A stretch of 64,000 nt of DNA, taken from contig NC_064760.1 of NCBI RefSeq assembly GCF_011397635.1, positions 25,493,356 through 25,557,355 on the forward strand, read 5' to 3'. This document shows positions 15,410 to 35,900 of the stretch, in pieces. A program made the translations under genes and the position numbers. A model generated the notes under the pieces. It saw nothing but the letters and a program-made list of their open reading frames with translations. It did not search any database and was not told the DNA's origin. This stretch comes from Epinephelus fuscoguttatus. Lineage: Eukaryota > Chordata > Actinopteri > Perciformes > Serranidae. Positions within the stretch are counted from its first letter, which is position 1. Each line of letters opens with the position of its first letter.

Positions 15410-18400
15410 ATGTACGGGCTGCTGTGTGAGAGTCTTCATGACTTCATCAAGGAGTCGTACGGAGACGATGTGTGGAAGCTGGTCAGAGAAAGAGCTGATG
15501 TCAGGTTGCACTCTTTTGTCACCCACCAGGTACAGCGTCTGACACGAGTGATATAATTCCGTCTGTGTGCACTGAATAGTAATATGTGCTGTCTGTGCGC
15601 ATCCACGTCAACCTGTCTGCAGTTTCTGTCACTCTTGTCTGCTTTCGTTTGAGGCTTTATAGTCCTGATGTCAAAAGAAATATTTTTTTTCATAAGATAA
15701 GGTCTGTGTGTCTGCAGGTGTATAGTGAGAGTGTGATTCCTCGGATTGCAAAGGCAGCCAGTGGAGTGACAGGGACGCCCTACAATGAGCTGATGAACTC
15801 CTGGGGTGTCTACTTCCTGGGCTTTGTTGGAAAGTACGGCTATGACAGGATCCTCAAGGTGAAGAAAGATCTCTCGCTCAAACCTGTCAGAACTGTTTTG
15901 TCTTTGATAGATGTGTGAGGAAATTCTTAAACACCCAGGGAGCTATGTATCCTTAAAACTGCTTTTGTGCTAGTGGAAATGTTTTGGTTTGTAAATCTTT
16001 GCATTTATTATTGTCTCATATATATATTATAGTCAATGAGGAAGGAAGATGTGACTCAGAATCTGAAGTATGTGGTTTCTAAAATATGTGGTCAAAATGT
16101 CTGCAGCAAAGTGCAAAATATCCTGATTTGTAGTCACTTTTCACCTATTTAAACTGAGGTGAGCTTTCTTCTATCGACACCTTCCACGACCCAGCACTAC
16201 AGGGGTGCCAGGAGAATTCCCCCCAAAAGAAATTTTAAAAACCTTAACAATAAACTGACCAATTTGGAGCCCTTTGAGAGAAAAATCTTATATCATGAGT
16301 TCTCAAAGTTTTGATGGCTGAGTGCTGTTTTTGAAAACATCATATGATTGAGGGCCACAAAGGAAAAGTACACACATACGTTTTAATGACATATTATACT
16401 ATAACTTTTTGAAAATTATATTTTTATTACATACGAACACTTAAAAAAAGAAAACTGTAATAATTAACAGTGACAAAACCAACATAGCTCTCATATTAAA
16501 GCCTGTTCATATTCTGAAGTTGTTGAATACCGCCGCTTTGTCAGTGATTTCGGTGTCAGATACCTGATGCCAAAAGCCACCTCTTGTGGCGATAGAATAC
16601 ATGGCCAGGTGGCGTCAGTATGTAATGCAGCTGGACATAACTTTTTGCGTTGTTATGATACACTGCTGGTCAGCCGGATGGCACCTGTCGCAGTGGTATG
16701 ATACACCGCAGGATGGCGTCAAGTTGAAATGCTGTCGGTAATGACGAATGAACATAAGAAACTAGAAAGTCCCTATAGGGTGGAGGGGGGGATGGTGGAT
16801 GGGTTCAACAAATCCTGGACTTTCGCCTTAGAGCCTGGTGTTTGCTTCCCAAATGCCAAACCAATTTTTTTTTTTCTAGACGTAACCACATGCTTTTCTT
16901 GCCTAAACCCACGTGCTTCTGTTGTCGTCCAGTTGGTATAGAATAGAATAAAATAGCTTTATTGTCATTGTACATGCACAACTAAATTGAATTCAACTCC
17001 TCAGTACAAGAGCTTATAAAAAAACAGTTACAAAATATATGGTAAAAAGTAAAAAAGTAACAAATATGAAACTGAAAAAACAGGCAGGGTATTCCACCTA
17101 TTGGCACAAATCCCTGATATTGCACTGAGGCATATTGTCACAGTCAAACCTTAGTGCATTTATTCAAGTGCAACTATTGCTTTGGATCAAAGCTGTTTTT
17201 TAACCTGCTTGTCCTTGTTTTAACTGTCCTGTATCTCCTGCTTGAGGGCAGCAGTTCAAACAGATGGTGTCCTGGGTGGGATGGGTCCTTGAGAATGTTT
17301 TGGGCCTCTCTGAGGCAGCGGGAACTGAAGCAGGTCCTGGAAAGTCAACAACAGATGCAGGAGGATACCTAGCGTGTAATATGTCCTCTAACAAAGCAGC
17401 AATGTGTGACAACTTGGGATGAGAATGTGTTGCATATTACATGCTAGTTTTCCACTTTTAAATACATTTTGAAGCGATTCAATAGAGAGACAGTGATGGT
17501 ACCTACTTTTCCACAGCAGTGAGCAAGGGCATCAGCTGGGGTACGACAATGCCACTTGCACAAACCACACACAGAGCTGCAGAACACCATTATACCAGAA
17601 TCAGTAGTAATAACAATGGCAATTTGTTAAAAGTTAATTTATGATAATGATAACATTTGCTATAGTGAGGGAGCTTATTTGAATATTGGGGGGGATTTGT
17701 CCCCCCTAGTATATATTATAATTGCCCTGGCTTGTATGAGTCAAGCTCCAAATATACTCACCCTAATTTTGTTTTAATGGTTTGTCCCTGAGCGTAAGCT
17801 AAGATAACTCTGATGACATCTATAGGGTTCTTTTTTTTCTCTAGTTTTCCCCCAGGACCTCAGAAGACATTATGCAACTGCTTTTACAGGCTGAGTAGCT
17901 CAGCTCATGACAAGAAAACTGAACACTGACTTTAAAAGTACTATCATAAAAAGGTAGGGCAACTACGGTCTGTCACCAGTGGTGTAGTTGTAGTTGCTGA
18001 GGTGGGTGTAGTGCGAGGTAAATGGGCACGTTACTGAGGAGGAAGTGGGTTTACACTCCCATATATGATGGCTTTTTGCCTGATTCTTTGACTATAAAAG
18101 GATGTGGATAAACCCTGTGTATGTGCGTATACCATCCACTACACCACCCCCTGTCTCTGCCTTCAGGTGCTGGGCCGTCATGTACGTGACTTTGTCAACG
18201 GCCTTGATAACCTCCATGAGTACCTGCGCTTCAGCTACCCCAAGGTGCAGCCTCCAACCTTCTTCTGCCAGGAGGAGTCAGCCACTGGAGTCACCCTGCA
18301 CTACAGGTCTGAGATGAGGAAGGACGAGGAAGATGGCAGAGAGATTGATAGAATATCAGGCATCAGACATAAGAACAGGGCATACAGAGAGAAAGCTGTG

Positions 18401-21400
18401 ATCAGTTTACTTCCAGTGATATTGAATTTTCTGCCTCTGTGACCGGCAGGAGTAAGCGCAAAGGCTATCTGCATTACGCCATGGGTCAGCTCAGGCAGAT
18501 GGGGAAACAGTTCTACGACACCGACATCCATGTGGAGGTGCTGTCTGAGCAGATGGTCGGAGACTACTCCCATGTCACCATGAGGTACACACACACACAC
18601 ACAAAGCTTTTTTACACTCAGTGATGGAAAGTAACATTTACTCGACTCCTGTTCATGAGCAGATTTTGAGGGATTTTTGAGTATTTCCATTTAATACTAC
18701 TTCATAGCCCACTACATTTAAGAAGAAAATATTGTATTTTTTTTATGCCACTATCTATATTTATCTATATATAAACAAAAAAAAAACTAACCCAGGAGTT
18801 ACCATTCTTTTTGGCTTGTGACCCCTTAAGAAGAAAGCAATGTCTAGCTGGGGTCCTTTGTCATGTTTCAGTTGTTAGCAGCTTCACCAAATAGATATTT
18901 CCCTCTAAACTTCTGAGATGACCTCATTTAAAAACTGTTTAAGTCCTAAAGAGGCACAGTAATTTAATGGTCAACAAAAAATGGCAAAGATTATTTAAAC
19001 AGCCTAAAAATGACACATTCATGTAGCAGAATTATGTTTTATCTTCTGTACTGCCCCATGAATCATCTCATGACGCCTCACATTTATCTTGTGATGGTTG
19101 TAGGCGCCTGACCCACAGTTTGAGAACTACTGGACATAACTACCAAACTGTATATACACAGTGGTTAAAGGTAGCTACGCAAGATGGTACATACAACCAA
19201 AATTTAACTTCATTACACTGGCTACCTTAAAATCAATTTTAAGATTTTAATTTTAACTTTGAAGGCCTGGATGGGACTGACTTCTGACTATGTCAGTGAA
19301 AGTTTAATCCCACATGAAGCTAAGTGTGAAGTCTAAGATCCAAGTTAGAGGTTCCAAAATCTGGCCTGAAAACCAAGGGGCAACCGCATCTTTGCTATCA
19401 GGGCCTGTCACTCTGGAGTGATTTGCTGGAGGAGGTCAGGGAAGCCACATTGTTGTACTCCTTTAAAAATGCACTTTTAAAATGTGTGTCTATTTAATTC
19501 CTTGCTGTGTATGTCTATTATTGTATCTTCTTTATATATCTTATCATATCTTTTTTTAGTTTATTCTTACTTTTGTGCTCTTTTTATTTTGCTTTTATTT
19601 TACTATCATTGTATCATCAAGTGATAATAATTATTATTTTCATTATTACACTTGGGCTAGCACTAACCACAACAGCATTTTAAAAATATCAGGATATATA
19701 TATTGTTTATCAAGATATAGCCTAAACATATCATGATATAATTTTCAGGACATGCCGCCCAGCCCTATCAGGTATCAATCTAATAATGAAACATATAAAA
19801 GTATGACACTTACAGGGACAGTGTTTTTGTGCAGACTGAATACTTAAACTTCTGATACTTTACGCACAATTTCTTCTTGATAATTCTTCTCTACTTTTAC
19901 TCAAATACATTTTTGAAACCAGTAATTTTACTTGCAGTATAGTATTTTCACTTTAAGTAAAGGATCTAGATTCAAGAGTCATTCAAGATTAAAGACGTTC
20001 ATGTCCCAGAGGGGAAATTTGCTTCACAGACAGTATTCTGACACAAATACATCAAATCATACACAACACATCTCCTACACTGTCACCACGAATTATGGGA
20101 AAAGACAATGAAATGACAGCAGGTGGAACAAAGGTAAGTCTGCATCCATTTGGATCAATCTGGATCTGGATACAAATACTTTTCATCAATCTTTATAAAA
20201 CATAATGATCTGTGTGTCTGTGCAGGCTGAACTTTGACAACTCAGCCTACCGCTACATCATGAAGGAGGATGAGGAGGAGCAGGAGATTCTGCCCATCAC
20301 CTCAGACTTCTTCTTTGAGGTCTTCCCCTTTAACATCGTCTTCAGACAGGTGATCCTACTGAGCTGTCTTCCTAAACTCACCTAATGAATGAAATGAAGC
20401 ATAAAGGAATTTACAATCACTGCAATTTTTTGATTCTTTAGGACATGGTAGTGCATAATGTTGGCTCAGGCCTGGCTACTGTCTTCCCTGATCTGGATGG
20501 GAAGAAGATCAATGATGCCTTTTTGCTGGCTCGCCCCCTAGTGGAGTTCACCTGGAACATGGTGAGACACCACTTTACATGTTCCCCTTTTAGACAGGGA
20601 CAATTCAATGTTTCCAGCTGACTGTATGTTAACACATTAGCTTTAGACTGTGTGCTGACAAGTCCTCAGAATACTGATGTGGTGATCTGTGCACAGATCA
20701 TCTCCCACCCCAACAACCTGTTTGAGATCATGTCCAAGGAGCCTGTGAAGAGAGAGAGGAACCTTCACAACCGAGTCCAGAGTAAGAGGGGGAGCCATGC
20801 AAACACTCGCAGGGGTGTGTGTCTGGTGGGCGAGGACTCTCTGGCTCTTGGTCAGATCAATTTCAGCACAGTCAGTCTCAGAAGACACGCTCGATTTCAG
20901 TTTCATTAAGTAACAAAATAGAGCAGGTGTTCAGTAAAATGGATGTCTGTTCTTGTACGATAGCTCCAACATGAACATTTCACCTTGAAAACATTTCTGA
21001 ATTATAGTTGAGAGTTTAGGAGGTCTTGCAGTTGCAGAAATTGAATTGTTTGATGTCTTGATTGAAGTTAAATTGATTGAGTTCAGTGGAACTGATCCCA
21101 GCCCTGGCTGTCATGGGTGGAGGGTGGAAATGTGAATGTTTGTGGCTCTGATAGTTTTACCCTGTTTTCCCACAGATTCAGACTATGAAAATGCCAATCG
21201 CTCTGCTGACGTAGACGTGGAGCTCATGGCTTTCCAGTCCATCATTGGAGATGATTACAAAGGTCATAACCTTTTCAAACAGCACGCAGTGAGATCTGAG
21301 CAGACACTAAACTATAGGCTGGCTGACATTATTAATACAATAACAATATTAAACTGAACTAGTAAAGACACAGACACATCAAACTAAAAACGTTTCACTT

Positions 21401-24400
21401 CAGATGAATAGTTTGACCCTTTGGAAAACATAATTATTTGCTTTGACAGTTGCTGAGTTGATGGGAAGCTCCATTCATTACATAACCGCTCTCATGCCTG
21501 TACATTCTATACAAAGCTGGAGTCAGCAGTAGGTTAATGAAGCTTAGCATAAGGATAGGAAAGAGCTAGCCGGGCCAAAGGTGACAAAAATCTGCCTAAA
21601 GCTCCATTATTAACATTTTATATCTTGTATGTTAACAAACTGTTTGGCTGCCAGGCAACCAGTGGACACTCCAGGAAGTTAATGCTCCCATCCAGGAAAT
21701 AGTCCAGCACAAAACCTACTGAAAGCCATTAAATGTTGTTACCTTTAAGTCCCAGACAAACCAAACCTACTGTATATCAAAGTATCAATGGTGATGAAGG
21801 CCAACTGATGTATTACTTTACATTGCCAAAAAGTTGCACTTGAACACACCGCAAAGACCACAGCCAATGGCCAACTAGCACATACATTCTGTGCTTGCAC
21901 GAGTAGAAATAACTCAATAGAAGTCTGCATTTGTCTCTCAAAAAGGGGATGTGGAAGACCAACGGGGTGAATTCAAGATGCTAGTTAGCCAGTTAGCACA
22001 ATACAACCTGATGTTGAAAGAACAATTGATACTACCCATGTGCTAGCGAACTATAACACAAACAACTACAAACTGTTTGTGCTAAAGAGCTCAATGGCTA
22101 AAGAATAATCTTACCCAATATAACCAACACATTCTCACTCCCACCTCATCACATATTGACATTTGGTCATGGACTTTCCACGTCCACATACGACGTGCAA
22201 GGTACCCTGGGTGTGTTGGTTGTTGACGTTCTGGGACAAGGTGTCAAGTTCTGCCTGTTAAATGCATTGTCTTCTTTCAAAATACACTTCCGTTTTCACA
22301 GGAAATTTAACATTTATATAAATTCTCTTTCAAAATAAATGCACTACGTCAGTACAACACTGCAAATTCACGTATTTTTCCTTCAACAACAAACCCACAT
22401 GGTTAGGTTTAGGGAAAAACAACAGGGTTTGACTTTGGAATCTTACGGGACGTGAACGCCGCTCTCTCTGGTGATAGTCAATATTTGTTGGACCCATCCA
22501 CCACCCCTCCCAGCTGCCCCCACTTTCGTCCTTGTCCCACTGCATTTCCCCCTGATGCCGTAGGGTGCCATTTAACTATATCGGCAACTGGCAGTGTATC
22601 ATGTCGACATTAAAGGACGCCTTTTTTGTTGGTTTCTGACGCCACAAGTCAATGTCTAAGCGCTGGATTTTGACAACTTTGGGGGTGAGACCCAGCTCAT
22701 ATAACACGTTTGTTTTGATCTCATGCCCTTTTGACTTCAGTTGTTTATCTGTTTTCCTCACTACTGTTTTTATTCTTGTCCACTGAGCTGAATTGCCAGA
22801 GTTATTTTACTCACCAATGGGCTCTGCCGTCTCTGACTCAACATGCTGAATCAGCTGACGAAGGCCGACTAGTGTCAAACTAGGGCAACAGATGCTCACC
22901 GATGGCCTGACATTGACCGACAGTTGACAACTGGCTTGGTACGTCAGGGCCTTTAGACAGAGCCAGGCTAGCTCTTTCCCTCTGTTCCCACCCACTTACT
23001 TATGCTAAGCTATGCTATGCTATTCTACCCTCAACAACTGGCTCAAGCTTCACATTGAACACACAAATACGAGCAATGCTATCAATCTTCTCGCCTAACT
23101 GTCGGCAAAGAAAGCAAATAAGCGCCTTCCCCAAAATGTCCAACCGTTCCTTTAAAAATGCTACACTGCCAAATCCATTAGACATAGTTAACACAGCGCA
23201 GTTATTATCTACTGCTGAAATTGAACCTGAAACACCTCTGTAAATGTTTGCTGTTGGCATTTCATCGTGCTCCTCTTTTAGACGGTAACAGTGCTAATGC
23301 GATGGAGAGCTGGGGCGATGGGAGCCGCTGCCTGAAACTAAAAGGACAAATGAGATACATGCCAGAGTGGGAGTCTATCATCTTTCTGGGAACCCCTGTG
23401 TAAGGCCCACACACACTCACAGAAACACACACAGAAACACACAGATAGACACAGATCTTTATTAAAACGCTGCAGTTGAAAAGTAAAACATTCTAAAAAG
23501 CAGCAAGAGCTAAACTGAATTACGAGGCTGGAAATAAAAGCCTGGGCAGTGAATCAAATCAGGGGCCCATTCTAACAGCACTTACCATGCATGAAATGAG
23601 CTGCTAATTAGCTTGTAATCAGACAGTGCAGCTCTTGTGAGCCTAATGGGAACCCATTTGCAACTGAGAGTGTTTTCCACAGAGTACATTACCAAAACAT
23701 CTCCCTCCTCTTCTCAAACATTTTGTTTTGCAAGTAAATGCCCTTATGCCTGTATTGACAAAACTACTGAAATGTTAAACGCCACATCACACTGCTTACA
23801 GCATTTATACTGTCGGAAACTAAAAATAATACCTCTTAGAATTACTGTCTTTTAATTCCCAGATTTTTTACTGCCATTGTTATTTCTAAATGGATTCCAT
23901 AATTGTTTTAGTGCATATTATTATCATTATCGTCGCTGTAATTTGTCTATTATTTTTTCTCTCTAACTGTGTGTGTGTGTGTGTGTGTGTGTGTAGGATG
24001 GAGAGTCTCAGTGCCATGTTTAAGACTGGCCTATACATCAACGACCTGAGCATGCACGACTCCAGCAGAGACCTGGTGCTGGCGGGCACACAGCAGTCAG
24101 AGGAGCTGAAGAGAGCTCTCATACAGGTTCACTCTGCCGACGTGCAGCTGCATTTTATATGTGTCATCAGCTCACTTGTCACTCTGCATTATGCAAAGTT
24201 GCTCTGAAGCCCTTCTTTCAGCCTGGCAGCCCCAGATCACCTACTGCCTGCAGACCTGAGATGAAACAAACTCACAGTGTTATTATTCTGTCTTGTTGCC
24301 CACTGTGAGCGCAGGAGCAGAAGAAGTCCAGTAAGCTGGAGGAGAGCATGAAGATGTTGGACTATGAGATGAAGAAGACCGATGACCTCCTGTACAGGAT

Positions 24401-27400
24401 GATTCCCAAGCCGGTGGCTAAAAGGCTGCGCAAAGGAGAGCCAGCTGTGAACACTTGTGAGGTCAGGGTTGTACATAGTGCCTTATACTCTTTTCACCAG
24501 GATTCATAAAGGTGCAGTCAGCTATTCTAATCCAGTACACCTTTTCTCAAATTTAGCAAGTACCTGCTCACAGTCTACAGCTGTTCTGTGTGTGCACTGA
24601 AAAAAAAATCTCATGTTCATACAGAGCCCTGTTTGGTTGCTCCTCTGTAAATGGGAAACAGACTGAGCCACACGACACTATTCCAGCTAATCCGCAACAG
24701 GGGGCCTTCGTGCTATTGTACAGGACATGGATGTACACAGAGAAAAGCAGTGGGAGCGAGATGGATGGTAAATCTGGCACATGCCAATGTGCTGAACTCC
24801 AGAGCAAATATCAACAATCTCCCTCCCGAATAGCCGACTCCACCTTTTAACAACAGAAGCAAGCATTTCAGTCATCCAACATTTGCTGCTCTTTGAAACA
24901 TGAGTCCATCATTGTGGGACATAAAATCATTCCCTTTCTTCTTGTGAGTTAGATGAGAGGACTGATATCACTTTTGTGGTTGTATGGTAAACATGAGACT
25001 ACAGCAGCTGGTCAGGTTAGCTTGACATAGAGACTGGGAACATAGGGGAGCAGCTCTGTACAAAGGGAAGAGATGTAGAAGTGCTGTCAAGTGGGTTCTG
25101 CTACCTTTGGACAGAACCAGACCAAGTGGTAACTAATGTGAAATGCCAATAACTGCAGTTCCTCTAATGGCCACTTGAGGCTGGCTTTAAAACTGAGCCA
25201 ATCCCCATTAGTCTCGCTCACCAGACCTTTCTCAAGAAAAGAAAGTTCTGTCTGGGCCAACTCTCACTTTGAGATTGGAGAAAAAAACGCTCCGGCTGCT
25301 TGTACTTCTTTCAACCAATCACAATTGTTCTGGGCGGTGCCACAGCAACGGTGCGCTTGCAAAAATATTCCTGGGGGGAAACAGGTTTTGGTGTAACACG
25401 CCCACAAAAATATCACCTACAGGATGCGAACCATGGCAGAAAAATGGCTACATCCCCGCAAGATCAAACACCGCAAAAGTTAGTAAAGGACGTGTTGAAA
25501 ACGGTTGAAAACTGCTACACAACCGGAGGTGGTAGGGCGGGACTTCAGCAGGTGGCTCTTTCTGCCCAATGAGAGGCTGATCTCTGCAGCGAACTTCCGC
25601 CCTGGTACAGAAAACTGTTTTGATCTCTCTCTGTACAGAGGATACATTTTTATATAATTCACCCGTTCAAATCTTTTTAAGGCTTAAATTTATGCAGAAT
25701 TAAGGGCATGGTTGTCTGCAAGGTGTTGCTACAGTCTATGAGTCAGATCCACCTCTCGCTACTCAAGATCTCTACCCTCTTGTCCAAATATGGTCACTAC
25801 TGGCTCCAAAATCCAAAATGGCACAGAATGCCAAACTCAAGGCTTCAAAACAGGAGTCCATAAACCAGTGGGTGACATTACGGTGGCTACATCGACTATT
25901 TTCATACAGTCAATGAGCCAGGCTAACTGTTTTCATGGGTAAGATCTTCCCCCAGTTTTCAGTCTTTTGGTTAAACTAAGTTGATCACCTGCTGGCTGTA
26001 GCTTCAGTTTTATCATTCAGACATGAGAGACATACACAGACACATCAGCCTTCTCAAACAACTCCCTTTAACTCACATTCATGCACCAAATCACCTAAAT
26101 GTTTGGCACAATTTTCTGGTTAAAGGTTGAATATTGTCTATCACAAGGTACAAACGAAGGTTTTTACTTGCCTAAAGCAGATGGTGGCTGACTGAGTACC
26201 TAAACACACAAACACCCACGCTGTATAAATCCTCTGAATTCTAACCATTGGAGACTTTTCGCCATAGTAAAATTCAGGTTGATGGAGTGCTGCTTCCTGA
26301 TGGTGCATAACAGCCTGGGCCCATGAATGCCTGCCTCCCCCACCTCTGTGTGTGTGTATGCAGAATATCAACCTGCCTGCTCATCAACTCTCTTATCTCT
26401 TCTCTCTCAGGTGTTCCCAGATGTGACCATTCTCTTCAGCGATGTCGTGGGATTTACTCGCATTTGCAGCCACATCACTCCAATGCAGGTGGTCTCCATG
26501 CTCAACACTATGTACACGCTGTTTGACACGCTCAGCGAGAAGCACCGCGTCTTCAAGGTTTGTGTTAGTTTTCCCCACTGTTATCTGTTAAGTGCCGCCG
26601 CATGAGAGCTGCTCTTCCTGTTTTTTCCAGGTGGAGACGATTGGAGACGCCTACATGGTGGTAGCCGGGGCTCCGGAGAAGACAAAGTATCACGCTCACA
26701 ACATCTGCGACATGGCCCTGGACATGGTGCGCTCCATTGATCACCTTAAGGACCCCTCGAATGGCAACAACATACAGATTCGTGTTGGTGGGTAGAACGC
26801 GTGTCGGCCTATTTGTGTGTTTATGTCGGTGAGCTAATGTGTTGTTGTGGTTGCAGGGATCCACTCTGGGATGGTGGTGGCAGGTGTGGTGGGACACAAG
26901 ATGCCACGTTACGGTCTGCATGGTGACACGGTCCACACTGCGTCTGCCATGGAGAGCAACGGAAAGGTAGGAAAGCTAAATCCCTATGTCTACTATATTC
27001 ATGATGACTATAGTGATTATGTGATTTTGTTGTAACTGCCTTGTTGCCCTTTATTTCATTCAGGAGATGCACATTCAGCTAAGCAGCGCCACCTACGAGC
27101 ACCTGAAAGGAAGTCATTTTATTTTCGAAAGGAGGGGCACCATTACCATCAAGGTTGGGGGTCAAAGCTGTTACCACAGCAACTATACCCACCTGATTAT
27201 ATGCATTCACTCAGCCACTGTAACAACATGTATTTAATATGATTTGCTGTCAGATATATGAGCAACACACGGTGTTTCCCCTTCATGTTATCTGCACATT
27301 ATACACGATCAACCTGAAGCTAAACATCGAAGCTTTTAAGTCTGTGTTAACGGCAGATTTGTGTATCAGCAGTCACACATTAGAAACAGTTCTGAATCTA

Positions 27401-28538
27401 AAAAATACATGAAATAATAATAACTCACAATGTTTTGGCTCTGGGGACTCAGCACACTTAGCATTCAGAGCTGGTGATCGCAGCTTGCTTGTTGATTTGC
27501 CAGTCTATTTATCACTGGGTCTGACTTTGAGGCTGTACATTCAGTGATAATGCCGGCAAAGTGACTCCCAAAGGTTTCTAAGGCAGCTGATTACAGGCGG
27601 CAATCTCAAGGAAGCGAGAGCGACTCATTTTTCATCAGGGAATTCTGATTATTGAAAATCTGCCACCTGCCATTTTCCTCCCCTCCGTAACAGAAATTGT
27701 GCCTGTGAGCATGTCTTTGAATATTTGTGCATAAGTCAGGCACCTCTGTGTCCTTGAACCTCTGTGTCACTTTTTTTCATCTCTTTGTCCGTTTTTAGGG
27801 GAATGTTGAAATTGAGACCTACTGGCTGAAAGGAAAGAGGGACAAAGATGGGAACGCTCAGGCGGCGTGTCCTCAATTTGAGACTCAGACCATCAGCAAG
27901 GCCATCAGCAAGGCCAATATCTCAGGCCCTGAGGCCCCAGGAGATGAGGAGGGCCTGGTAAAAATTCAACCAAGACATACTTGAATGGCTTACGCGCTCA
28001 TTTGCTTCATTGCCACCATCATCATCATTATCATGATCTCTGATTCCCTGAGTCTCCGTCTGCCTTTGCCCCCAGGTGTTCCCGCTGGTGGCGGGAGAGG
28101 ACGAGGATGATGTCAAGTCTATTCGCTCTCATCGTATCAAGATGGAGATTTCAGGTCATTCTCTGGAGGAGTCGATGGAGGAGTGCCGGATGGAGGAGAT
28201 GTCTGTTAATAAGGTGGGAGGTATTACCTGGTGGCAGGATATCTAGATTGTTAGACTTTTAATGACTCCGATTTAGATATACTATGCGGGATTGTCTGTT
28301 GCCATCTCCTCCTATTAGCTGTTAGTGCTGTTGTACACGTGCTGTTTTGTTAACCATGCACAAAACTGAACTGTTCCTTCCCCAGTCCCACTTAAAGGAT
28401 GCTTTGCAGGACGGCCTTCAGGACCCTCACCTGGAACTGGACTCACCTGTGTCTGACGGCAGAGACTCCATCATGGACTCCCGTGCCAGCTCCTGCGACT
28501 CCCGCTGCTCCAAGAGTGCCACGTGCTCCGTGTCATGA
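15410..28538 (+). CDS. soluble guanylate cyclase, Gyc-88E-like (atypical beta type)
   Basis: Eighteen coding exons join in phase: 15410-15529, 15718-15858, 18167-18306, 18450-18584, 20226-20349, 20442-20561, 20697-20781, 21176-21262, 23282-23399, 23997-24126, 24315-24461, 26411-26557, 26631-26787, 26857-26966, 27064-27153, 27799-27957, 28076-28213, 28386-28538 (766 aa). Order: H-NOX haem domain (1-180) with haem ligand His104 in LDNLHEYL and Tyr133/Ser135/Arg137 in LHYRSKR; PAS-like HNOB domain; coiled coil ([20 protein letters not shown]); cyclase domain from about 445; acidic tail. Blocks such as [25 protein letters not shown] and VVSMLNTMY resemble Drosophila Gyc-88E, an oxygen-sensing cyclase, far more than vertebrate beta-1. 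Metal-binding Asp460 and Asp504 are 44 apart, as usual. Substrate positions are altered: Gly570, His577 and Ala581 replace Cys, Asn and Arg. The C-terminus CSVS fits a CAAX box. Annotation could also read GUCY1B2-like; I left the symbol empty. Confidence 0.92.
16530..16830 (+). repeat. dispersed repeat, copy 1 (second copy at 22440-22670, inverted)
   Basis: This stretch shares segments with the reverse complement of about 22440-22670: a TTGTGGCG motif, ATGATACAC beside CACTG, GGATGGCACC versus AATGGCACCC, and GGTGGATGGGTTCAACAAA versus GGTGGATGGGTCCAACAAA. Both copies are in cyclase introns. The class is unknown to me and no protein is encoded. Confidence 0.6.
16941..17400. repeat. teleost dispersed repeat in cyclase intron 2
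   Basis: It begins with an AATAGAATA-type run and CTTTATTGTCATTGTACATG, a phrase I recognise from a common teleost interspersed repeat. It continues through GGTGGGATGGGTCCTTGA and GGCAGCGGGAACTG. The small frames within it are not conserved genes. The repeat class is not resolved. Confidence 0.5.
18585..18602. repeat. (CA)n at the donor of cyclase exon 4
   Basis: The donor of exon 4 is GAG then GTACACACACACACAC, so the splice site opens directly into a short CA tract. Confidence 0.9.
18622..19985. mobile_element. split DNA-element host copy with nested insertions
   Basis: The outer parts (18622-18760 and about 19780-19985) carry phrases such as GATGGAAAGTAACATTTACT, GAGTATTTCCATTTAATACT and ACTTTTACTCAAATACATTT. 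These belong to a very common teleost element also seen at 37975-39210. The material between is unrelated and includes a second element ending CAGTTTGAGAACTACTG (about 18788-19132) and a LINE remnant (19195-19482). I infer an old element interrupted by later insertions. Confidence 0.6.
19195..19482 (+). mobile_element. non-LTR retrotransposon (LINE) reverse-transcriptase remnant
   Basis: Translation on the plus strand gives a broken protein resembling the very end of L2/CR1/Rex-type reverse transcriptase: [25 protein letters not shown], then GNRIFAIRA and SFKNALLK. Stops and frame changes interrupt it, so it is dead. It lies in cyclase intron 4. Confidence 0.6.
21405..23155. mobile_element. 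about 1.75-kb inverted-repeat element in cyclase intron 8
   Basis: The left arm (about 21405-21600) contains TTATTTGCTTTGACAGTTGC, GAAGCTTAGCATAAGGATAG and GAGCTAGCCGGGCC. The right arm (about 22945-23155) contains the complements: GCCAGGCTAGCTC, TTATGCTAAGC and AACTGTCGGCAAAGAAAGCA, and ends near CCGTTCCT-TTAA. The inside holds other repeats, including the inverted second copy at 22440-22670. Matching arms recur at 39690-39850 and 40751-40790. Confidence 0.65.
22440..22670 (-). repeat. dispersed repeat, copy 2 (inverted relative to 16530-16830)
   Basis: This is the second member of the pair described at 16530-16830, in the opposite orientation and inside the larger inverted-repeat element. 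The shared motif GGTGGATGGGTCCAACAAA is read on the minus strand. Confidence 0.55.
23970..23996 (+). repeat. (GT)n abutting the acceptor of cyclase exon 10
   Basis: An uninterrupted GT tract runs directly into the AG of the acceptor, and exon 10 starts at 23997. The pyrimidine-rich stretch TTTTTTCTCTCTAAC lies just upstream of the tract, so the repeat separates it from the AG. Confidence 0.95.
25175..25935. repeat. two adjacent teleost dispersed repeats in cyclase intron 11
   Basis: The first part (about 25200-25640) has phrases such as CTCACCAGACCTTTCT, CCAATCACAATTGTTCTG and CCAATGAGAGGCTGATCTC. The second (about 25690-25935) has GTTGCTACAGTCTATGAG, CCATAAACCAGTGGGTGACA and TTTCATACAGTCAATGA. 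Both read as interspersed repeats I know from other fish genomes. Short frames inside are not conserved genes. Confidence 0.5.
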
Positions 28539-30055: not shown

Positions 30056-30436
30056 TCAGACAATGTTCCCCACTGACTGGTTATCAGAGGAGCTGCACTT
30101 ATAGGTGGCGTCCTCACGGTCTAGGCTGCATCTGTTGGCTGTGCGTGAGTCTTTAGGCAAAGAACCGATGGAGCAATGGAAACAGAAGGCGTAGAAGAAG
30201 GCAAGCAGGAGCAGGAAGCAGACAACGCAAAAAATGACCACAATCAGGATGGTGTGCACCTGCATGTGCACCTCCTCCCATGGGAGCGCTGTGGTGGTGG
30301 TCAGGAGGCTGGAGGTCATCAGGGTTGCATTAGGCTTCATGGAGGGCAGGTGGGCGACTTCCGGCATGATGGGAAGCCTGGGTGGCTTGAGGATATTTTG
30401 TTTCAGCTTCAAGGAGACAGTTGGATTTGCATGCAC
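30056..30436 (-). CDS. unrecognised small single-pass membrane protein
   Basis: I do not recognise this protein. The open frame encodes up to 126 residues. Its features are consistent with a real gene: one strongly hydrophobic segment (about 61-86, core ILIVVIFCVVCFLLLLAFFY), a Thr/Ser-rich N-terminal part with an NAT glycosylation sequon, and a polar Cys/Ser-rich tail ending SVGNIV. The true start is unsure: MHAN opens the frame, MPEV at residue 24 is an alternative, and the 5' part may come from an upstream exon. A good donor (TTCCAG then GTAGGAAC, at 30718 on the minus strand) supports that exon, which could add residues beginning METLPVIPGPP. A minus-strand AATAAA at 29659-29664 could end the transcript. 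Confidence 0.55.
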   Translation of the reverse strand: MHANPTVSLKLKQNILKPPRLPIMPEVAHLPSMKPNATLMTSSLLTTTTALPWEEVHMQVHTILIVVIFCVVCFLLLLAFFYAFCFHCSIGSLPKDSRTANRCSLDREDATYKCSSSDNQSVGNIV

Positions 30437-30900
30437 AGATAAACACGGACAGTAATGAGATACAGAAGTTATTTTAATTCAAGTGGAGTTAATTATATCA
30501 AATGATGAATCAGCCTGCTGAAAACTACAGAGAGCACGGGCATAAAAATAATGACTTTGAATGATTTTCACATTCTTAAACCAAGCCAGCACAATGATAA
30601 GCCAGAAAGAACATTATTAATCAACTTCCAAATATGCTCAATTAACCTGCTGCTTTTAAGCAGGTCAATCATCTCTCTCACCGACAAGCAAACACAGACG
30701 TGGCTTTTGTTCCTACCTGGAATGTGTTGTCGTCCTGAGCAGGCTTTCTTTTGATGAGCAGAGCTTGGGAAAATGAAAGAAATGGAGGATAAGAGAGGGA
30801 GGGCTGGACTGAAGAAGTGAGGTGGCTGGTGGACCAGGAATAACAGGCAGGGTTTCCATGGCAACACTAGCTGAGGGGCCACTTGAATGGAAGTGACATC
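30437..30900 (-). other. probable 5' part of the small membrane-protein gene
   Basis: On the minus strand, a frame from an ATG near 30861 runs to a consensus donor at 30718. If joined to an acceptor inside the main exon (CCACCCAG then GCTTCCC), phase is kept. It may instead be untranslated. No other gene is seen here. Confidence 0.3.
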
Positions 30901-32967: not shown

Positions 32968-35900
32968 TCACTTCTTCTTATTCACAATGTTGTTGCAAAT
33001 CCAGTTCATGCCATCCTGTCAGGGAAATAAAACAGTATGAATCAGTGTCATATTCAAAGATAAAAAATAAACCATCAAACTAAGCAAGTCAAAGAGGTTG
33101 CTGGTAGAAATATGGTCTCCATTAAAGCTGTTAAGACTGATTTTCAGCACACTATTGTACAGCAGGAAGGAGCACTTTTATTTGGTTAATTAGGTTCCAT
33201 GTGAGGAAAAATCAATAAATCAAGGTTGGCTCTAGGTCTGACCTGAACTCCCTCTCCAGACACGGCTGAGCAGGCCTGAATCTGCCACTCACGGTCCCTG
33301 TACGTATGAAGGTTGAGTCCCTCGGCGATCTCACTGGCCGGTGACGCTGTGGCCAGATCCTGCTTATTGGCAAAGATGAGCACTGGAACGCCCTTTAGAT
33401 TCTCCTCATCAATCAGCTCGGACAGCTCCTGTACATACAATCACATGGAAATGTTAATGATTAAAAAAAAAGAAAAAAAAAAGATAAAAAAACAACTATC
33501 ATATATTAACTTGAGGTAGTTTTAATATGATTCTCGTCAGAAATGACATCAAGCTCACCAGCCCCGTCTCCTCAAACCGCTTCTTGTCCGCGCTGTCAAT
33601 AACATAAATCTGAAATAACAAAAGTGCTTATGTAAATACATGTGATAAATATATGCAGATATGTAAAATTCGCTGACAAGCAAACAGAAAATTCATGGAC
33701 AAAAGTTTTCTTTTTGGCCTCAACGCTTTAAACTCCTGAAGGTGTCAGTGACTCTCTCACAGTACACAGCTGCTGCTCTTGTACGGCAGCCAAAAAGTCA
33801 ATGTTAATTGAGAACAGGAGTCACACTTGTCAACCTCTCAAAAATGTTCCACAACATTAGAGTTTTGCCAACAAGCTCCGTCATCAAGATACAATTACAC
33901 TGCTTAATTTGTGCATATATGTGATACGTAAATGTCATGGATATTTATTGCTTCATATTCTTTTTGTGGTGTATTCTCAGTGATCAGTCAGGACTCCCGG
34001 GTGACACACAACCACTTTGTAAACACTAATTTGGATCCAAGAGGAGAATAAAGTAAATGTCTCCCTGGGGAAGATTTTAATTGATTTGAATTAAGTTCAG
34101 TGACTCACCAACAGGTCTGTGTTTTCCAGGTACTTTTTCCAGAAGGGCCTGATCTTCCTCTGTCCTCCAATGTCCCAGACGTTGAGTTTCATGCCATGAG
34201 AGGCAACACTCTTTATGTTGAAGCCCTGGAGTGAAGCACAAAGCTGGAGTCACTGCACTGCACATCACTGCCTTCAATTTAACACAGTTCCAATACGCAG
34301 CACCTGGAAAGCCTCGCAAATGGTTATGTAGCAATTCATTTAGCTGCGAGGTACTAGAGCACAGGTGTGTGTGTTAAATGAATCACCGTTTGGTTACTCT
34401 GTAATGTAACCTTGTTACATATCAGCAGGAGAGCAACATGTGCTCTGAGCACTCCTAAGGAAGTGGTCACTGTGTTAATCCGCCGCCGTTTTTTTCGCAA
34501 CGCGGCTCCTTTCTGCTGCAGTCGGCGAGGTTGTATAACAACTTTATCCTGAGGGCCAGCTGAGGAGCAAATCTGAGGATAAGACTGGAAGGATCAAGTC
34601 CAGTGTATATGTTTATGTGTCAAGTCTGGTTTAGCTTTGTGTTGACTTGTCATGCTGGACTGCATCATCTCCGCCTGATGTCTGACGAGCTGTCACACTT
34701 GTCCAGGACCTGGCACTACATCTGCTCTATGTCTTGCCTTGTGAGAGTAATGCAAGGGTATTAGATAATAATATTAGAGGTTAAATAGTCACATGACAAG
34801 AGGGTGATAAAAAAAGAAAGGCCTCACTACAACGTTAGGATCCTCTGAGAAAATATGTGGAGAACAAATCGGGACGGTCGTTTCCTGCTGAAAGGTTATT
34901 TAACATACGACTTAACAGGATGATTGGACAATCTCAAATCATTATTTTACTGATTGATGGTAAAAGCATGTGTACTGTAAGGCCAATTGTTTTTATTTCA
35001 CAGCGTGTCAGAAAAGCAAAGGTCGTCTAAATCACATTACTTCGAGTGACAGCGTGCACTGGTCCAGCTGGTCTCACAAGATTAGATACAATCCCCCTGC
35101 CTTTTACAATGCTGTGTTACAGCACCATGAAAATACAGAGTATCTTTTGGAAAGTGTGAATTAAACGAGATAAATCCATCAGTGTATGGCTGCTTTTGCA
35201 AAAGGAATTAATCACAGTGGGCAAATTATCTTTAAAGAGTGGCAACTTGGGGGTTATCATAATATTGGTGGCATATTTCTGGCAGATGCACACCGTTTAT
35301 CTAAAATACACCTTATAATGAACATCAGGTGGTAACAGTATAAAGTGACTCAGCTGTTCACATCATATCATATACAATGCAAGCGACGCTTCTTGCCTTA
35401 TTATGCTGTACAGTAAGTGACGTTCCTTCAGGTCACAATGTGTTTGTGTGAGTTTTAACATCTAACTTCCTCTCACCTGCGTCGGTGTGATGGTGTTCAC
35501 ATCTTCAGAGGCGAGGCTCTTCAGCAGGGTGGTCTTGCCAGCGTTGTCCAGCCCCAGAAGCACTATCCTGACCTCCTGCTCTGTGGATCCCTTCAGTTTC
35601 TCAATGACAGAGAGTAAGCCCTGCGTGTGGGAAGGAGGGTGGGATGTGGAGGGAGAGGACAGGTCATAAACTTATTGCTGCATTAACACAGCATCCTTTA
35701 TTGTTTGTGAAGCAACTCCTGTGGAAGTCGACCTGGTTTACAATACAAAAGCATGTGAGCGCCCGTCTATTTATAACATTATATTTTTGAAGGGGTGCAA
35801 CGTTTCTTTGACACACTCTGGAACATCCAACATCGTATCAGGTGATATATAAAAATGCAAACATAGTTTTCAGACATACTTTACACCTCAACACTGATCC

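Follow-up and report, generated by a model that had tools for sequence, protein, structure and literature searches.

A soluble guanylate cyclase of Epinephelus fuscoguttatus that has lost three substrate-side catalytic residues, and a paralogue with the reciprocal pattern

The gene in the window and its domains

The window analysed here is a stretch of 64,000 nucleotides (C9:25493356-25557355, C9 being our contig label) from the genome of the fish Epinephelus fuscoguttatus, which comprises 1.047 Gb in 26 contigs. It contains a guanylate cyclase gene of 18 exons on the forward strand (15410..28538; positions are those of the window unless a contig is named), which forms one open frame of 766 amino acids without internal stop. 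The exon borders were placed by hand, and 17 of the 17 introns are of the GT-AG type. Pfam detects in the encoded protein, in this order, the domains HNOB (residues 2-164, E 5.5e-51), HNOBA (residues 202-438, E 1.7e-73) and Guanylate_cyc (residues 451-629, E 1.1e-63). The best solved relative is the soluble guanylate cyclase (sGC) subunit beta-1, chain 6jt0_B (E 1.2e-106), and we take 6jt0 to be the human protein. We assume the gene to be of the 88E type, a name used in a fish annotation that appears in a passage of PMC12673963. According to that passage, the pikeperch gene LOC116049087, “soluble guanylate cyclase 88E-like”, is transcribed in brain, and it thus provides a fish gene of this name, but it is named by annotation only, carries the GO term “enables guanylate cyclase activity”, and could match either the window gene or its paralogue described below.

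The H-NOX part begins in exon 1 (15410..15529, residues 1-40), which holds the start codon and matches Pfam HNOB, and continues in exon 2 (15718..15858, residues 41-87). Exon 3 (18167..18306, residues 88-134) contributes the haem ligand His104 (18215-18217), Pro117 and Tyr133, and exon 4 (18450..18584, residues 134-179) contributes Ser135, Arg137 and the distal-pocket Tyr143 (18475-18477). HNOBA sequence is encoded by exons 5 (20226..20349, residues 179-220), 6 (20442..20561, residues 221-260), 9 (23282..23399, residues 318-357) and 10 (23997..24126, residues 357-400), with exons 7 (20697..20781, residues 261-289) and 8 (21176..21262, residues 289-318) lying between them, and exon 11 (24315..24461, residues 401-449) covers the linker helix region. 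In exon 12 (26411..26557, residues 450-498) the metal-binding Asp460 (26441-26443) is found within an intact FSDVVGFT loop, while exon 13 (26631..26787, residues 499-551) encodes the guanine-binding Glu500 (26634-26636), the metal-binding Asp504 (26646-26648) and the triphosphate-binding Arg549 (26781-26783). Exon 14 is treated separately below. Exon 15 (27064..27153, residues 588-617) retains the triphosphate-binding Lys617 (27151-27153), exon 16 (27799..27957, residues 618-670) completes the cyclase domain and starts a C-terminal tail that extends into exon 17 (28076..28213, residues 671-716), and exon 18 (28386..28538) encodes residues 717-766 and the stop codon.

Downstream of the cyclase gene, the reverse strand carries pieces of a gene for an ARF-family GTPase (33186-35671; Pfam Arf in two of three open frames tested), which by eye resembles ARL3. 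Between both genes, also on the reverse strand, an open frame of 140 amino acids (30056-30478) shows by eye a hydrophobic, membrane-like stretch; a Pfam search with it gave no match.

The haem motif of the window protein is complete, with His104, Pro117 and the YxSxR residues Tyr133, Ser135 and Arg137, and Tyr143 occupies the distal-pocket position that is Ile145 in beta-1. In sGC, a distal tyrosine alone has not always sufficed for O2 binding. A passage of PMC1435932 assigns a distal tyrosine at this position to the O2-sensitive basal clade and isoleucine to beta-1 and beta-2. The atypical soluble guanylate cyclases of Drosophila, Gyc-88E and Gyc-89Da/Db, share with the window protein the order H-NOX-HNOBA-cyclase, the haem histidine and, by that passage, the distal-pocket tyrosine of the O2-sensitive basal clade.

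Catalytic residues and exon 14

An earlier sequence-only reading of this DNA had claimed that one exon of a guanylate cyclase has lost three catalytic residues, and this is borne out in detail. Exon 14 spans exactly 26857..26966 (residues 551-587), is bordered by an AG acceptor and a GT donor, and is in frame with the 17 other exons. Within a block of 19 residues, the Cys that binds guanine, the Asn and the Arg are replaced by Gly570 (GGT, 26913-26915), His577 (CAC, 26934-26936) and Ala581 (GCC, 26946-26948). The beta-1 equivalents, counted along 6jt0_B in the alignment, are Cys541, Asn548 and Arg552, which show the same 7- and 4-residue spacing. The alignment to beta-1 adds that a fourth conserved position is gone, as His572 stands for the Phe of the CLFG motif (beta-1 Phe543), and that two further catalytic positions, Arg549 and Lys617, are kept. 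Also the statement that the metal side is intact proved correct, with Asp460 and Asp504 being 44 residues apart and Glu500 likewise kept. Neither tblastn nor a six-frame motif scan of the window revealed a second or alternative exon 14 with Cys, Asn and Arg.

In the structure of CYG12, as a passage of PMC2576301 describes it, monomer A contributes the two metal-binding Asp residues and an Arg to each active site, and monomer B contributes Glu, Cys, Asn, Arg and Lys; the Asn orients the ribose, the latter Arg is the transition-state residue, and both are described there as conserved across cyclases. The window protein retains three of three residues of the A side (Asp460, Asp504, Arg549) and two of five of the B side (Glu500, Lys617). 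The full catalytic set for a homodimer is absent, and the earlier prediction that a homodimer of this protein would be inactive finds support in the loss of Cys, Asn and Arg beside a whole metal side.

The sequence-only reading had further compared this pattern to that of alpha subunits. Indeed, the metal side is kept and Asn and Arg are replaced, but alpha subunits retain the Cys and the Phe, as seen in the PDB alpha-1 chains and in both alpha-type genes of this genome, and they possess Thr for Asn and Lys for Arg. As alphas keep the Cys, the analogy is only partly right. The window protein also has the haem ligand His104 and the YxSxR motif, whereas a passage of PMC2576301 states that the H-NOX region of alpha subunits does not bind haem. 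Identity with an alpha subunit was rejected, since alphas keep Cys and Phe of CLFG and since the window protein groups with its paralogue in the tree described below.

For comparison within the genome, 20 guanylate cyclase genes were read, namely the window gene, its paralogue on contig C8, five other soluble and 13 receptor-type genes. They were picked by hand from at least 134 exon matches (150 of 152 candidates scored), and 16 clusters presumed to encode adenylyl cyclases lay outside this set. Calling genes of this genome alpha, beta-1 or beta-2 is our choice, which the tree backs for alpha-1 and beta-1. All 18 genes other than the window gene and the C8 paralogue have both Cys and Phe; Asn is found in 14 and Arg in 15 of them. 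Thr and Lys take the places of Asn and Arg in both alpha-type genes, Thr and His do so in a receptor gene on C25, and a receptor gene on C23 has Thr for Asn but retains Arg. The window gene is thus not alone in lacking Asn and Arg. The loss of Cys and Phe is found in the window gene only among the 20 genes read.

Column by column, the comparison used rows made of tblastn exon pieces with gaps, in which the exon-12 piece is missing for the C17, C18 and C25 receptor genes, the second-Asp columns are missing for C10 and C23b, and exons 15-16 are mostly missing. Conservation of 80% or more among the other genes, judged from 12 rows or more, holds for 63 columns, of which seven are changed in the window protein and six in the C8 paralogue. 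Three departures are common to both (461, 495, 524); those of the window protein alone are 497, which is a mild Tyr-to-Phe change, 570, 572 and 581, and those of the paralogue alone are 463, 465 and 503. The column of Asn577, conserved in 14 of 18 genes, is just below the cut and thus outside the 63.

The C8 paralogue and its reciprocal pattern

Whole-genome searches with the window protein, HNOB and HNOBA revealed one close paralogue, at C8:862251-882439. Of 141 candidates in the window-protein search, 59 were scored, which makes the paralogue count from that search alone a lower bound. The searches with HNOB (18 of 18 scored) and HNOBA (29 of 29 scored) led to the same soluble cyclase places on C3, C5 (twice), C24, C8 and C9, and as they add no other close one, the C8 gene is considered the sole close paralogue. 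Its model, from C8:862251 through exon 16 at 882439, comprises 693 amino acids with GT-AG introns and no stop, the far C-terminal end lying outside the model. Identity to the window protein is 100/182 in H-NOX, 94/188 in HNOBA, 132/183 in the cyclase domain and 31/37 in exon 14. A Glu/Lys-rich insertion is found between the HNOBA pieces of C8 (C8:867681-868483), which the window protein does not have.

In a cyclase-domain tree of 17 of the 20 genome rows (those with more than 110 residues; C17, C18 and C25 were dropped) and three PDB rows, the window protein and C8 are sisters with a support of 96/94, on branches of 0.31 and 0.17, respectively. The path between them is 0.47, compared to 0.11 for beta-1, 0.28 for alpha-1 and 0.19 for the natriuretic-receptor-like gene of this genome, each measured to the respective PDB counterpart. 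In the models with hand-placed borders, C8 lacks intron 5, has intron 3 shifted onward by 35 bases, and differs by 8 bases in the positions of introns 1 and 4. This tree path and the intron differences suggest an old duplication or fast evolution.

The C8 paralogue displays a reciprocal pattern, which goes beyond the earlier reading. Its 19-residue exon-14 block has Cys, Phe, Asn and Arg intact, and its substrate side is therefore whole. The metal loops are altered, reading FSDVVKFNE for FSDVVGFTR and VETIRDAY for VETIGDAY, with both metal-binding Asp residues remaining, so that Lys, Asn and Arg stand at window positions 463, 465 and 503 beside these two residues. Gly503 is present in 16 of 16 other genes with that column; column 463 has Gly in 13 of 15 and Thr in the other two, and column 465 has Thr in 14 of 15, with beta-1 having Asn as in C8. 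In total, the cyclase domains of both proteins differ at 51 of 183 positions, most of which are non-conserved or uncovered columns. Mapped by residue correspondence only, the changes at 463, 465, 503, 570, 572 and 581, and also that at 577, would all lie in the same site of a C9/C8 heterodimer, whose other site would stay whole, much as in sGC alpha/beta.

The haem residues are present in C8 as well, which has Phe at positions 140 and 143, and Tyr143 occurs in the window protein only of the two. For this reason both chains may carry haem, and O2 would more likely be held by the window chain than by C8.

The surroundings of the exon-14 block had been described as constrained, and the comparison with C8 agrees with this. 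For the cyclase domain, dN is 0.196, dS 1.31 and dN/dS about 0.15, a ratio that is rough because dS is high, and the base differences number 32, 28 and 87 at codon positions 1, 2 and 3 (87 of 147 at the third). In exon 14, six of 37 residues differ, including the three catalytic ones (chance 0.0026) and, together with these, the Phe (0.0002), both figures being calculated after the fact. Within codons 566-584, the four replaced codons hold eight base differences, and the 15 other codons encode the same amino acid with eight silent third-position differences. A base-calling slip was rejected, as eight base differences in just the four key codons are too many.

A putative heterodimer and other readings

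As the window protein keeps the metal half and C8 keeps the substrate half with an altered metal side, both may work as a pair. We consider it on balance probable that the window protein is the metal-side subunit of an atypical, haem-bearing and possibly O2-sensing heterodimer, with C8 as the most likely partner. In this atypical soluble guanylate cyclase, the window protein would take the role of the “A” subunit (alpha-like or C1-like), and the active site would be formed by its metal face (Asp460, Asp504, Arg549) together with the substrate face of C8 (Glu, Cys, Asn, Arg, Lys). The remaining site, pseudosymmetric to it, would combine Gly570, His572, His577 and Ala581 of the window protein with the KFN and IRD metal loops of C8 and would be dead or regulatory, while a gas, possibly O2, at the H-NOX haem would regulate cGMP output. 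The suggestion that the protein is the alpha-like half of a heterodimer thus gains a plausible partner in the genome that has the missing half, but it is not an alpha by residues or tree. Counting against the pairing, Asn465 of C8 is also found in beta-1, and the window protein still has Glu500 and Lys617 of the B side. Moreover, since both metal-binding Asp residues and the A-side Arg remain in C8, this protein may be active by itself, without any partner; judged from the residues, its metal-side change is weaker than that of beta-1, where the first Asp and this Arg are gone.

Comparable divisions of labour are known. In sGC alpha-1/beta-1 (GUCY1A1/GUCY1B1), one subunit keeps the metal face and its partner the substrate face, but in view of the alpha and beta differences mentioned above, the C9/C8 split differs from sGC in its residues. 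Transmembrane adenylyl cyclases also distribute complementary half-sites over two cyclase domains, C1 and C2 (a passage of PMC2576301; AC8 and AC5 alignments), but there both halves are on one chain, the specificity is for adenine, and a haem domain is lacking. A passage of PMC11568450 reports that the atypical cyclases of the fly are mostly inactive singly and more active when co-expressed, and that they are thought to be mostly heterodimers, and one of PMC2576301 has several atypical cyclases predicted to act as homodimers. Gyc-88E belongs to the Figure 1 set of PMC2576301, whose catalytic residues are called conserved in the text of that paper, and by this description it is set apart from the window protein, which lacks Cys, Asn, Arg and Phe.

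Accounts of gas-sensing cGMP signalling in vertebrates usually feature NO and the alpha and beta subunits. Tentatively, and with less confidence than the pairing itself, we propose that, apart from the NO-sensing alpha/beta enzyme, fish possess a haem-based, probably O2-sensing cyclase heterodimer whose two paralogous subunits would have divided up the active site independently of alpha/beta and C1/C2. If true, this would provide a direct O2-to-cGMP route in fish through a second pair of subunits that bears reciprocal changes and a haem pocket of the O2 type, and the half-site division would have evolved again. A sharp prediction of the pairing is that the changes of either protein should be immaterial once the two are together. 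The residue loss may be confined to one lineage, as the comparison covers one fish genome. In the titles, abstract starts and passages covered from the open-licence PubMed Central literature, neither a fish 88E-type pair nor such a residue loss was found described.

As an alternative to the pairing with C8, the window protein could be a pseudocyclase that, whatever dimer it forms, yields no cGMP but serves as a haem-based gas sensor, as a scaffold, or as a brake that traps C8 or a beta subunit in dead dimers. The loss of the transition-state Arg and the ribose-orienting Asn, which its own homodimer would need, and its longer branch in the tree (0.31 vs 0.17 for C8) are in line with this. However, a pseudocyclase would not obviously need the metal face that is kept here (Asp460, Asp504, Arg549 and the FSDVVGFT and IGD loops), and C8 keeps the complementary face, so we regard this reading as rather unlikely.

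It could also be postulated that the metal-side subunit pairs with beta-1 or a beta-2-like gene instead of C8. In the fish beta-1 (C3, 19.04 Mb), the first Asp is gone (FSG) and Cys, Asn and Arg are kept, so that this subunit needs a metal-side partner. Two soluble genes that we assign, presumptively, to the beta-2 type (C5:22376001-22386000 and C24:6633001-6643000) both possess FSDVVTFT and an intact exon-14 block and are possible alternative partners. But two alpha-type genes in the genome could serve beta-1, and the nearest relative of the window protein is C8, with its own changes on the complementary face; we think that a beta partner is unlikely to be realized.

A homodimer with changed chemistry appears very improbable. 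His577 and Ala581 would have to take over from Asn and Arg, and without the Cys the choice of the base would be relaxed, resulting in weak activity or another product. In favour of this, Glu500 and Lys617 of the B side are kept, but the Asn and Arg have the ribose-orienting and transition-state roles that the passage of PMC2576301 calls conserved across cyclases. Least credible of all is that a redundant gene has begun to decay, or that the assembly is wrong here. The window protein does have a longer branch than C8, but 18 open exons with GT-AG introns, the dN/dS of about 0.15, the confinement of changes in the 15 other codons of 566-584 to silent ones and the concentration of eight base differences in just four key codons all stand against such readings, in keeping with the earlier view against simple decay.

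Among the receptor-type genes, the exon at C25:1119801-1121350 (at about 1362 in the locus) encodes a stretch of 21 residues in which Thr stands for the catalytic Asn and His for the Arg, the Cys being retained, and this gene is a candidate for a second half-site or pseudo-cyclase in the genome. The receptor-type cyclase at C23:19381951-19382300 (at about 221 in the locus) has, in a stretch of 12 residues, Thr for Asn, with Arg and Cys kept.
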